Positions 57,984-61,570 of a stretch of DNA of 64,000 nt are shown here, piece after piece. The DNA lies in contig NZ_CP062976.1 of assembly GCF_014898075.1 (NCBI RefSeq), forward strand, positions 1,736,001-1,800,000, in the 5' to 3' direction. The stretch is from Neisseria yangbaofengii. Its GTDB lineage: Bacteria; Pseudomonadota; Gammaproteobacteria; Burkholderiales; Neisseriaceae. Below the pieces are notes generated by a model. The model was not told the DNA's origin and did no database searches. It saw nothing but the letters and a program-made list of their open reading frames with translations. The translations under genes were made by a program, and so were the position numbers. Within the stretch, counting starts at the first letter, position 1. Each line of letters opens with the position of its first letter.

Positions 57984-59516
57984 TCAGGCTTCCATTTGCG
58001 CCGCTTGGATAGCAGTCAGCGCGATGGTGTACACGATGTCATCTACCAATGCGCCGCGCGACAAGTCGTTCACCGGCTTGCGCAAACCTTGCAGCATTGG
58101 GCCGACGCTCAAGACGTTGGCGTTACGTTGAACGGCTTTGTAGGTACAGTTGCCGGTGTTCAAATCCGGGAACACCAACACAGTCGCCTGACCGGCAACC
58201 GCGCTGTTCGGCGCTTTAGATTTGGCTACGCTCGGCACGGTGGCGGCATCGTATTGCAACGGGCCGTCAATCGCCAAATCGGGGCGTTTTTGCTGCGCGA
58301 TTTGAGTGGCTTGTGCCACGGCTTCAACATCAGGGCCGGCACCGGAAGTGCCGGTTGAGTAAGAAATCATCGCCACTTTCGGCTCGATACCGAAGGCTTT
58401 GGCAGAATCGGCAGACTGAATCGCGATGTCGGCCAATTGTTCAGGCGTCGGGTTCGGGTTCACCGCGCAGTCGCCGTAAACCAAGACTTGGTTTGGCAGC
58501 AACATGAAGAAAATACTTGATACCAAGCTCGCGCCCGGTGCGGTTTTAATCAATTGCAAAGCGGGACGGATGGTGTTGGCGGTGGTGTGAACTGCACCGG
58601 AAACCAAGCCGTCTACATCGTTTTGCGCCATCATCATGGTACCCAACACCACAGTATCTTGCAGCTGCTCGCGTGCCTGCTCTTCGGTCAGGCCTTTGCT
58701 CTTACGCAACTCGCACATCGGCGCAACGTATTGCTCGATCAAATCGGCAGGATCAATGATTTCCAAAGAATCCGGCAGGTTGATGTGGCGCTCTTTAGCC
58801 ACGGCTTCCACTTCGGCACGCGGTGCCAGCAATACGCAGCGGGCAATGCCTTTTTCATGACAAACCGCCGCAGCTTGCACGGTGCGGGGCTCGGCACCTT
58901 CCGGCAATACAATGCGTTTGCCGGCTTTGCGGGCGGTGTCCATCATGTTCACGCGGAATTGTGATGGCGATAAGCGGTTGCCGCCGCGGTTGGCCAATTC
59001 GTTCACATCGCCCAATTGCTCGGTTGAACCAAAGAAGGTCAAACCGGTTTGTTCGGCAGCAGCTTTACCCACACCCGGTGCTGCATTGTCCAACACGAAG
59101 CCGGCCAATACGCCCGGTGCGGTGATGTAAGATTGTTTGGCCAGATTCAATTTTTGCACGATGTCGTCAACATCGGTTTCGCACAATTCGTTTTCTTCGT
59201 CGCATGCGCCCACAGCAAACACCACTGCCGCATCCAACGACAAGGCCAATTCAAAGTTTTTGGTGGCCAAGAATACTTTATCCGCGTTTGGACGAATGCC
59301 TTTAATAACCACGTTTTCCGCGTTTATTTCGCTGATTTTGCCGACCAGCGCGTCTAACCAGTCATCGCTTTTGCCTTGTGCCAACAGCTTTTCGCCAAAG
59401 CCGTTTTCATCCAGTGCGCGCAGGGCTTGGCCATTCGGCAATGCAGCCGCCAAAGCCTGAGTGGTCGCCCAGCTGTCGATGCGGGCGGAAACGGGTACAA
59501 CCAATACGTTTGACAT
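57984..59516 (-). CDS. pta: Phosphate acetyltransferase
   Basis: A 510-residue enzyme interconverting acetyl-CoA and acetyl phosphate. The C-terminal catalytic domain (about 185-505) has [44 protein letters not shown]-type [12 protein letters not shown] and [16 protein letters not shown]-like middle segment precedes it. It is shorter than the 714 residues of E. coli Pta: the N-terminal P-loop-like part is absent or reduced to [12 protein letters not shown]. This is likely a lineage trait. ackA is not adjacent. Confidence 0.93.
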
Positions 59517-59911
59517 GTTTGTTCCTTTTCGTGGGGGATAAAAAAGATAAATTCGCGCTTATTTTATCACTTCGGCGCAGCGGTTTGCACCGATTACAAC
59601 GGAATTTGAGGGTAAATCGGCTTAACTTTGTTTGAAATCAGAGAAAAATAGGAGGTATCTATCATTTACAAATAAATATAAGTGGAATAAGGCCGTCTGA
59701 ATAAACTATGCAGATAAATTTACTTTTATTTTATGCAGGTCAATCAGCCATGAATAATCAATATTATATTTGAATATTTATATTAGCACTAAGTTAAAAT
59801 AATTAAATGATAGTTATTACTATTTTGAACTATTTTTATTTTTTTGTCGCAACAATATACATCTTTTTCTTGTACAGATATTTTTGTCTTAATTAATCAG
59901 AGAAGTATGTC
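59517..59911. other. AT-rich region between pta and the bacteriocin-like gene
   Basis: 395 bases, AT-rich beyond 59640, with one uptake sequence at 59691. It must hold the promoters of both divergent genes. No ORF of note. Confidence 0.55.
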
Positions 59912-60181
59912 ATGCGTGAAATAAATAACCGTGAATTATCGGCTGTCAATGGAGGCTTTGCTATTCCGGGAGCGATTGCCGGAGGCATTGCCGGTTACAG
60001 AGCTTATGCCGGAAATGTTGCTGCAAGCGGAAGGAAGTTCAACTGGCGGGATGCAGGTTACGCCACAACTTTAGGTGCAGCAGGAGGCGCAATAGGCGGG
60101 CCGATGGGAATTACTGCGGCAGTTGATTTGGTAGGTCTCGCTACGGTAGGTGGAATGGCTCAAGGTTTTCTTACCAGATAA
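59912..60181 (+). CDS. Double-glycine-leader bacteriocin-like peptide
   Basis: An 89-residue precursor. The first 15 residues, MREINNRELSAVNGG, fit the leader of class II bacteriocins and microcins cut by peptidase-C39 ABC exporters: the E-L-xx-V-x-GG pattern. The mature part (74 residues) is rich in Gly and Ala, with small-residue helices containing AGGIAGYRAYAG and GAAGGAIGGPMG, as in pore-forming class IIb peptides and blp-type bacteriocins. AGAGAAG precedes the ATG. A small membrane protein gene follows 126 bases later. No transporter is in the window. The antimicrobial activity is inferred from the leader and composition. Confidence 0.75.
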   Translation: MREINNRELSAVNGGFAIPGAIAGGIAGYRAYAGNVAASGRKFNWRDAGYATTLGAAGGAIGGPMGITAAVDLVGLATVGGMAQGFLTR

Positions 60182-60307
60182 TAATTGATAACATTAACTA
60201 AAGAATGGGAAGGTTTAATCTGGTAAGTTTGAGAGAAAACCTTCCTTCCTTTCTTTAATCCCTTTAAACAGTTACAAAACTTTTGACGATATATGGAGCA
60301 TCAACTT

Positions 60308-60484
60308 ATGCGTCATGACCTTGCTTTATTTTTTGTATGCATTTTTTTACTCTGCTTCTTCTTCGGTAGGTTGTTCAAACTCAAGGATTCTTTTCCTGCA
60401 GAGAAATACGGCTTCGGCATTAATTGGGTTTATCTGCTCATTGCGGCAGCAGCAATGGCCGTTTACAGCATCATTAAAAAATAA
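60308..60484 (+). CDS. Small two-helix membrane protein, candidate immunity protein
   Basis: A 58-residue protein with two hydrophobic helices (LALFFVCIFLLCFFFGRLF and WVYLLIAAAAMAVYSI) joined by a short charged loop KLKDSFPAEKYG, ending in KK. ATG 60308 has GGAG nine bases upstream. An ATG five codons earlier has no such site. Size and place just after the bacteriocin-like gene suggest immunity, but no known family is recognised. It could be unrelated. Confidence 0.55.
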   Translation: MRHDLALFFVCIFLLCFFFGRLFKLKDSFPAEKYGFGINWVYLLIAAAAMAVYSIIKK

Positions 60485-60493
60485 AACAGTTTG

Positions 60494-61570
60494 TTAATCG
60501 CCCATCGCCGCCAACAATTCGGCTTGATGCTCGGCAATCAGCGCATTGGTCAATTCGTCCAAATCGCCGTCCATGATGAAATCGAGTTTGTGCAGGGTCA
60601 GATTGATACGGTGGTCGGTTACCCGGCCTTGCGGGTAGTTGTAGGTGCGGATGCGTTCGCTGCGGTCGCCGCTGCCGATTAAGGATTTGCGTTCGGCGGC
60701 TTCTTTGGCTTGCGCTTCCCGTTTTTGCGCATCGTTCAAACGTGCCGCCAACACTTTCATCGCCTGCGCTTTATTGGCGTGCTGGCTGCGGCCGTCCTGA
60801 CATTCGACAACCGTGCCGGTCGGCAGGTGGGTAATGCGTACCGCCGAATCGGTTTTGTTGATGTGCTGGCCGCCGGCACCGGATGCTCGGAAGGTATCAA
60901 TCCGCAAATCGGCGGGGTTGATTTGAATATCTTCCAACTCATCGGCTTCGGGCATCACGGCAACGGTACACGCTGAAGTGTGAATCCGTCCTTGGCTTTC
61001 GGTGGCGGGAACCCGCTGCACACGGTGGCCGCCGGACTCGAATTTCAGACGGCTGTATGCGCCCAAGCCGACAATGCGGGCAATCACTTCTTTATAACCG
61101 CCCAATTCGCTTTCGTTGGCGGACACGATTTCGACCTGCCAGCGGTTGCGTTCGGCATAGCGGCTGTACATCCGCAGCAAATCGCCGGCAAACAGCGCCG
61201 CTTCGTCGCCGCCCGTCCCCGCCCGTACTTCGATAAAAATGTTTTTATCGTCGTCGGCATCTTTGGGCAGCAGCAGTTTTTGCAACTCGGTATCCAAGGT
61301 GTCGATTTTGGCTTTTGCCGCTTCGATTTCTTCGGCAGCAAATTCTTTCATTTCAGGGTCTTGCAGCATTTCTTCGGCGTCGGCCAAATCGCTCTGCGCC
61401 ATGCGGTAGCTTTGGAACACTTCCGCCACCGGCGTGATTTCGGCGTGTTCGCGCGTCAGCTTGCGGTAGTTGTCCATATCTTCGGTGGCTTCGGGCTGGC
61501 CGAGCAGATGGGTGACTTCTTCCAAACGTTCGCTAAGTTGTTGTAATTTTTCTAAAATAGACGGTTTCAT
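60494..61570 (-). CDS. prfA: Peptide chain release factor 1
   Basis: A 358-residue RF1 recognising UAA and UAG. The catalytic GGQ motif is [18 protein letters not shown]. The stop-codon tripeptide is PxT, seen as [13 protein letters not shown]. The typical [20 protein letters not shown] region is present. No hemK/prmC follows. A hairpin of mixed AG/AT uptake sequences lies in front of the start at 61587-61615. Confidence 0.96.

Follow-up and report, generated by a model that had tools for sequence, protein, structure and literature searches.

The window, the 64-kb stretch of DNA analysed here as a whole, contains a gene pair encoding a double-glycine (GG)-leader bacteriocin-like precursor (59912–60181, plus strand) and a small immunity-like protein (60308–60484, plus strand). 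The pair lies between two minus-strand core genes, which we take from their sequences to be pta (phosphate acetyltransferase; 57984–59516) and prfA (peptide chain release factor 1; 60494–61570), within an inserted cassette of approximately 783 bases and 37% GC (59705–60487) whose left edge is uncertain by tens of bases. The AT-rich pocket described in the first-pass annotation is evident: GC content is 0.29 at 59700–59999, versus 0.49–0.58 inside pta and 0.55–0.60 inside prfA (300-base windows), and is 22% over the 207 bases upstream of the precursor. A GCCGTCTGAA core, presumably an uptake sequence, marks the left edge of the cassette (59692–59701, plus strand). This core occurs 92 times in the window with both strands counted; within 59300–60700 it is found at 59692 only and nowhere inside the gene pair, as annotated earlier for the interval between the genes. 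At the empty pta–prfA site of another genome (G016), an inverted pair of GCCGTCTGAA cores occupies the place matching 59692.

The 89-residue precursor begins MREINNRELSAVNGG and is organized into a 15-residue GG leader (59912–59956) and a mature peptide of 74 residues (59957–60178; 7117 Da and pI ~10, computed from sequence), of which 34 are Gly or Ala, matching the GG-leader, Gly/Ala-rich peptide first annotated. As described in excerpts of PMC10233263, class II microcins carry a GG/GA leader of 15–18 residues and a mature peptide of 5–10 kDa, ranges into which both leader and mass fall. The C-terminus, GGMAQGFLTR, with a single Ser in the 74 residues, lacks the Ser/Gly-rich siderophore-attachment region of class IIb microcins. 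Profiles of known families give only a hint, with PF10439 (Bacteriocin_IIc) scoring 14.8 bits against a curated cut-off of 27.1 and TIGR01847 (bacteriocin_sig) 13.1 bits against 15.7. Among solved structures, the toxin profile gave five matches, all non-significant (best E 0.059), and the immunity profile none at E up to 1; no toxin relative was found at E 1e-3 among 72,556 plasmid records. As a candidate phage gene the locus had a single non-significant PHROG match (E 4.2), and as a candidate defence gene no PADLOC match at E up to 1; both assignments were rejected.

The partner ORF begins 126 bases past the precursor stop and encodes 58 residues with two predicted transmembrane helices (hydropathy segments 5–23 and 38–56), a family signature of ~EKYGFGIxW and its own GGAG, a likely ribosome-binding site (60295–60298, plus strand), reproducing the two-helix neighbor noted at first pass. 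An alternative 63-residue frame from 60293 runs over this GGAG, making the 58-residue start the better one; in the G022 homologue, an ATG occupies the equivalent position. In being adjacent, within 51–216 residues, transmembrane and conserved in its pairing, the protein resembles the small membrane immunity proteins that PMC10233263, in its excerpted text, places beside class II microcins together with a C39-ABC exporter, adaptor and TolC. Between the two genes lies a hairpin (60199–60257, plus strand; folding z −3.5 over 67 bases). Its counterpart in N. weixii scores better (z −5.4 over 61 bases) even though the stem there carries an indel; the whole 129-base spacer reaches just −1.4. The hairpin, absent from the list of a simple terminator scan, may act as an attenuator or be terminator-like. 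No sigma-70-like promoter was found on the plus strand of 59500–60520; the promoter and terminator scans gave one match each, both on the minus strand and neither above shuffles. The cassette holds no regulator gene.

Short frames with weak profile scores in an AT-rich intergenic stretch could be chance ORFs rather than genes, a reading we rejected as vanishingly improbable in view of relatives in another species (E 1.2e-46 for the toxin and 1.3e-34 for the immunity protein), ordered pairing and purifying selection. Of 46 genus genomes covered by single-sequence searches, 10 have a toxin relative (E up to 1e-3) and 9 an immunity relative (E up to 0.1). Across 83 family genomes, the toxin profile matched 11, every one in Neisseria, and the immunity profile 9, eight in Neisseria plus one weak fragment outside the genus. 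A 300-genome sample of the order yielded four toxin-profile matches, two of them from the genus; the other two, from beyond it, adjoin a C39-like protein that has no ABC portion (recognised by eye); the scan of named genomes returned N. weixii and one weak match. The window genome itself encodes a 53% identical toxin relative (E 5.8e-24), which precedes an HlyD gene by 1.0 kb and a C39-ABC gene by 3.2 kb, with two immunity-family members just after it. Exporter-linked toxin copies are also present in G029, G039, G035 and, as a fragment, G012.

The first-pass annotation had staked its reading on co-occurrence of the two genes across isolates, and this is what was found. An immunity relative is present in seven of eight genomes with a VPGA-type toxin versus 1 of 38 others (Fisher 1.2e-6). 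The initial set comprised seven toxin genomes (G000, the window genome; G043, taken as N. weixii; G029, G039, G035, G012 and G022; Fisher 1.5e-7), to which G016 was added. The remaining profile-matching genomes of the 11 were left out: G006 because its subfamily and partner differ, G040 because its peptide was regarded as a Sec-signal precursor next to a stand-alone C39, and G036 because its match (E 6e-4) falls within a 946-residue frame. G016, the sole exception among the eight, carries a stop-truncated toxin remnant and no immunity relative. In the other seven, every VPGA-type toxin match has a same-strand immunity relative within ~250 bases, placed after the toxin except in G035 and one G039 copy, where it comes before. 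The pairing is conserved in both exporter-linked and orphan settings. Under identical criteria, none of the 46 larger ORFs in the window is followed by a small ORF with two helices. A lone weak immunity relative (54-residue frame, L129:1500–1660) was observed in G008, which has no toxin match in the single-sequence or profile searches; it lies near what we presume to be a murI-like gene.

The genome's matches to PF03412 all fall outside the 64-kb window, in keeping with the earlier view that an exporter would be supplied from elsewhere. A genome-wide search, proposed with that view, located two C39-ABC genes of full length, one at 2.269 Mb and the other at 2.308 Mb (~0.47 and ~0.51 Mb from the pair), each adjoined by HlyD genes. 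The genome also encodes TolC-type outer-membrane efflux proteins, one adjoining the second exporter cluster, and, at 0.383 Mb, a stand-alone C39 protein. The genome therefore contains the C39-ABC, membrane fusion and TolC-type components typical of class II microcins; exporter genes near the peptide, another such feature, are missing at the window pair and close by for its 53% relative. Across the 46 genomes, some C39 match was detected in 20, and a C39-ABC gene in 6 of 7 toxin genomes versus 8 of 39 others (p 0.0019), the 14 positives including partial or stop-bearing genes (G031, G020 and G015). This association says little about orphans, because in five of the six genomes with both, a toxin copy sits within the exporter cluster. 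In N. weixii, whose genome is scored 85% complete, no C39-ABC exporter was found, just a stand-alone C39 protein. The window genome carries a Nap-like module (L022:565–3339; G000:C1:380564–383338) in which precursors with a Sec-type signal (by eye) and a GA-type leader accompany a stand-alone FapD-like C39 peptidase with a profile score below cut-off. C39 matches in frames of ~190–260 residues were seen in several other Neisseria too.

A GG-peptide exporter cluster of the window genome also contains a JmjC_2/ROXA-like oxygenase gene (L014:7714–8868; G000:C1:2260713–2261867), as do the exporter clusters of G012, G029, G035 and G039; the C-terminal part of the oxygenase recurs in the window genome as two additional, truncated copies. 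The Pfam scan covered the G000 oxygenase, to which the others are 61–76% identical. Where the oxygenase gene is open (five clusters), 10 of 12 listed peptides carry a DxSGNNYxDGTNY-like C-terminal tail; where it is missing (four exporter clusters), 0 of 13 do (p 2e-5). The tail expression behind these counts was devised once the tails had been seen and passes over Gly/Ala-poor tail-less peptides. This count leaves out G015 (stop in the oxygenase match; 0 of 2 tailed), five orphan peptides and the G008 peptide, none tailed, and the regions without a listed peptide (L100, L102, L104, L107 and L108). An exact DNA pattern for the tail matched nothing in 108 loci. We suspect that the shared tail is an oxygenase substrate or an uptake tag; literature searches found no work joining JmjC with both microcins and bacteriocins, nor JmjC with RiPPs, 2-oxoglutarate and precursor peptides. 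Unlike its exporter-linked relatives, the window peptide is tail-less.

Of 46 genomes, 45 gave a PrfA match, and sequence downstream of prfA was taken from 43 genomes plus a second, partial copy in G022, giving 44 loci of some 1.2 to 2.4 kb each, one of which ends at a contig end. pta adjoins prfA in 10 of these, counting a shorter Pta in G018 and the prfA fragment of G022. Three of the ten junctions hold the cassette (the window, N. weixii and G022), and six do not, with spacers of 152–247 bases (G016, G014, G036, G037, G038 and G018). The tenth, in G008, holds a different short GG-leader ORF (L067:875–1000, minus strand), which suggests an insertion hotspot. In N. weixii, pta and the toxin are separated by an IS1595-type transposase, the toxin stops at codon 81, and the immunity protein is 97% identical to that of the window. 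The G022 toxin is missing its ATG and 28 residues from its interior, while the immunity frame beside it is open, with 67–68% identity to the window. This cassette adjoins just a 3′ fragment of prfA (L093:4114–4533), full prfA being located elsewhere, marking an old rearrangement. Synonymous changes number 17 of 98.6 sites in the cassette versus ~80 of 263 in its flanks (p ~0.016). Occupancy of the site thus differs between species and synonymous divergence lies below that of the flanks, which together support mobility of the cassette, probably through transformation and homologous recombination. A literature search found no work joining minimal mobile elements with Neisseria prfA.

Orphan pairs, those unlinked to an exporter, extend beyond this junction. 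Six more were observed in the window genome (L017, L018, L019, L020, L021 and L123), all with open partner frames. We counted 12 orphan pairs in four genomes: seven in the window genome, three in N. weixii and one each in G022 and G006, with the partnerless G016 remnant and G040 excluded. The toxin is broken in seven and the partner in none (exact McNemar p 0.016), every partner frame being open with two predicted helices. Broken toxins comprise those at 602k, 1537k and 315k in the window genome, all three in N. weixii (partners 3/3 intact) and that of G022; the window, 717k, 1119k, 1867k and G006 toxins are intact. The partners fall in several families, one of which is common to the window, N. 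weixii and G022. For the pairs other than G022 and N. weixii 2385k, toxin–partner gaps range from a 26-base overlap to 148 bases, except at 1537k, where the partner lies 417 bases on and the pairing is open to doubt. The pairs are not all independent, since 315k and N. weixii 2385k are one locus, broken in both species, where a single decay event may underlie both breaks; entering this locus once gives 6 versus 0 (p 0.031), and dropping 1537k as well gives 5 versus 0 (p 0.063). Some breaks could be assembly errors, given the estimated 85% completeness of the N. weixii genome. Exporter loss alone does not explain the decay, because four of the seven broken toxins lie in genomes holding C39-ABC genes (three in the window genome, one in G022) and because an exporter-linked copy in G012 and a second copy in G039 are also broken.

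Substitution patterns were compared between the window genome and N. weixii. Partner dN/dS at three loci was 0.055, 0.126 and 0.141, the last from three changes, so that on sequence comparison the partner is under strong purifying selection, with ratios drawn from few changes. At the window locus, the immunity gene has a dN/dS of 0.055 versus 0.29 for the toxin (80 codons; few changes), within which the leader gives ~1.1 and the mature part 0.17 over 65 codons; the 717k toxin, at 0.156 over 64 codons, resembles its own partner. Between the window genome and G022, synonymous sites of the immunity genes are saturated, with dN 0.22. The first-pass annotation had held strong purifying selection without a toxin-like pattern against its reading, and the outcome is mixed: selection is strong on the immunity gene and weaker on the peptide.

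Judging from the decay pattern, selection seems to keep the immunity half for longest. Taken further, the cassettes could be an immunity reservoir in which resistance to bacteriocins of other Neisseria is selected and the toxin is a decaying passenger, no longer exported or active. The seven-to-none imbalance of breaks, the stronger constraint on the immunity gene, the open immunity frame beside the ruined G022 toxin and the missing tail of the window peptide all favor it, and there is precedent in pneumococcal non-secreting 'cheater' strains that keep immunity, as described in excerpts of PMC4739721. We nevertheless consider this rather unlikely, as the window toxin is intact with a mature part conserved relative to N. 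weixii, and the five intact orphan toxins all occur in G000 and G006, genomes that both hold a C39-ABC gene.

The reading we favor, at somewhat better than even confidence, is that the window pair is an orphan class II microcin-type precursor with its immunity protein, exported in trans, both functions being predicted. By the excerpted account in PMC10233263, class II microcins such as microcin V share with it the leader, peptide size, small transmembrane neighbor and C39-ABC/adaptor/TolC components; their exporter genes adjoin, whereas here the exporter is remote and the activity is a predicted one. The Moraxella catarrhalis bacteriocin McbC and its immunity protein McbI, for which the cited portion of PMC2761928 reports experimental killing and immunity, show a similar layout, on which the likeness is drawn: a small immunity gene (74 residues) comes after the GG-leader bacteriocin, with McbA and McbB as secretion proteins. 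Unlike the window genes, the four mcb genes are transcriptionally linked and mcbC and mcbI overlap.

Comparable systems are known closer to home. N. meningitidis 8013 encodes double-glycine polypeptides and C39-ABC/adaptor units with a suggested bacteriocin role (NeMeSys, excerpts of PMC2784325). These peptides are, like that of the window, small and glycine-rich with GG/GA leaders, a C39-ABC, a membrane fusion protein and a TolC-like channel; the excerpted text, with which we compared by description, describes no immunity genes or orphan pairs, whereas the window pair sits as an orphan at a core-gene junction. Meningococcal NMB0097/NMB0098, likened to the window system by description rather than sequence, are implicated in meningocin secretion and required for growth inhibition by the producer, the bacteriocin gene itself being not identified according to the cited part of PMC9263626.

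Gonococcal Naps point in another direction. As excerpted from PMC11798529, they are GG-type cationic bacteriocin-like peptides of Neisseria with an immunity-like gene nearby, and they act in autolysis with no detectable antimicrobial activity; by analogy, they caution that resemblance to a bacteriocin does not make a peptide a killer. The NeMeSys authors, in the same excerpts of PMC2784325, raised a pheromone role for meningococcal GG peptides. The window peptide might accordingly be thought to serve self-lysis or signalling, with its partner as brake or receptor. We judge this improbable: mature Naps are shorter (16–36 residues versus 74), and the nap island encodes the C39 peptidase NapP and the FapF-like channel NapF (PMC11798529, excerpts), neither of which lies beside the window pair; moreover, the cassette lacks a regulator gene, and differing occupancy with toxin decay beside kept partners fits warfare better.

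Bacteriocin and immunity protein thus remain the best reading among those weighed. Under this model, the leader would be recognised, one of the two ABC exporters would use its C39 domain to cut behind Gly-15, and the 7.1-kDa cationic Gly/Ala-rich peptide would leave through HlyD and a TolC-type channel, with the inner membrane of Neisseria relatives as its site of action. The 58-residue two-helix protein, itself in the inner membrane, would block the mature peptide. The cassette would move without its exporter and integrate at core-gene junctions such as pta–prfA, and the immunity half would outlast decay of the toxin half. A commensal host, as first annotated, is plausible, because N. weixii is a named relative with the cassette at the same site.

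A broader joint reading is possible, though we hold it tentatively: some Neisseria may maintain a scattered bank of immunity cassettes at core-gene junctions (seven in the window genome), exchanged between species, in which the toxin would pay only in the presence of a C39 exporter, whereas immunity would last. Their exporter clusters would make a second, unrecognised peptide class whose tail is the substrate of the JmjC-type oxygenase, with window-like orphans as tail-less offshoots.

Class II microcin-type pairs are themselves a known kind, to which the window pair adds a probable Neisseria member. Its interest lies in the decay pattern and in the 2022 review PMC9263626, whose excerpted text had no characterised Neisseria bacteriocin. 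The candidate peptide–immunity pairs reside with exporters in the same genome and are amenable to gene-removal tests. If loss of the toxin with retention of immunity proves general, resistance to relatives would be a trait preserved in its own right.
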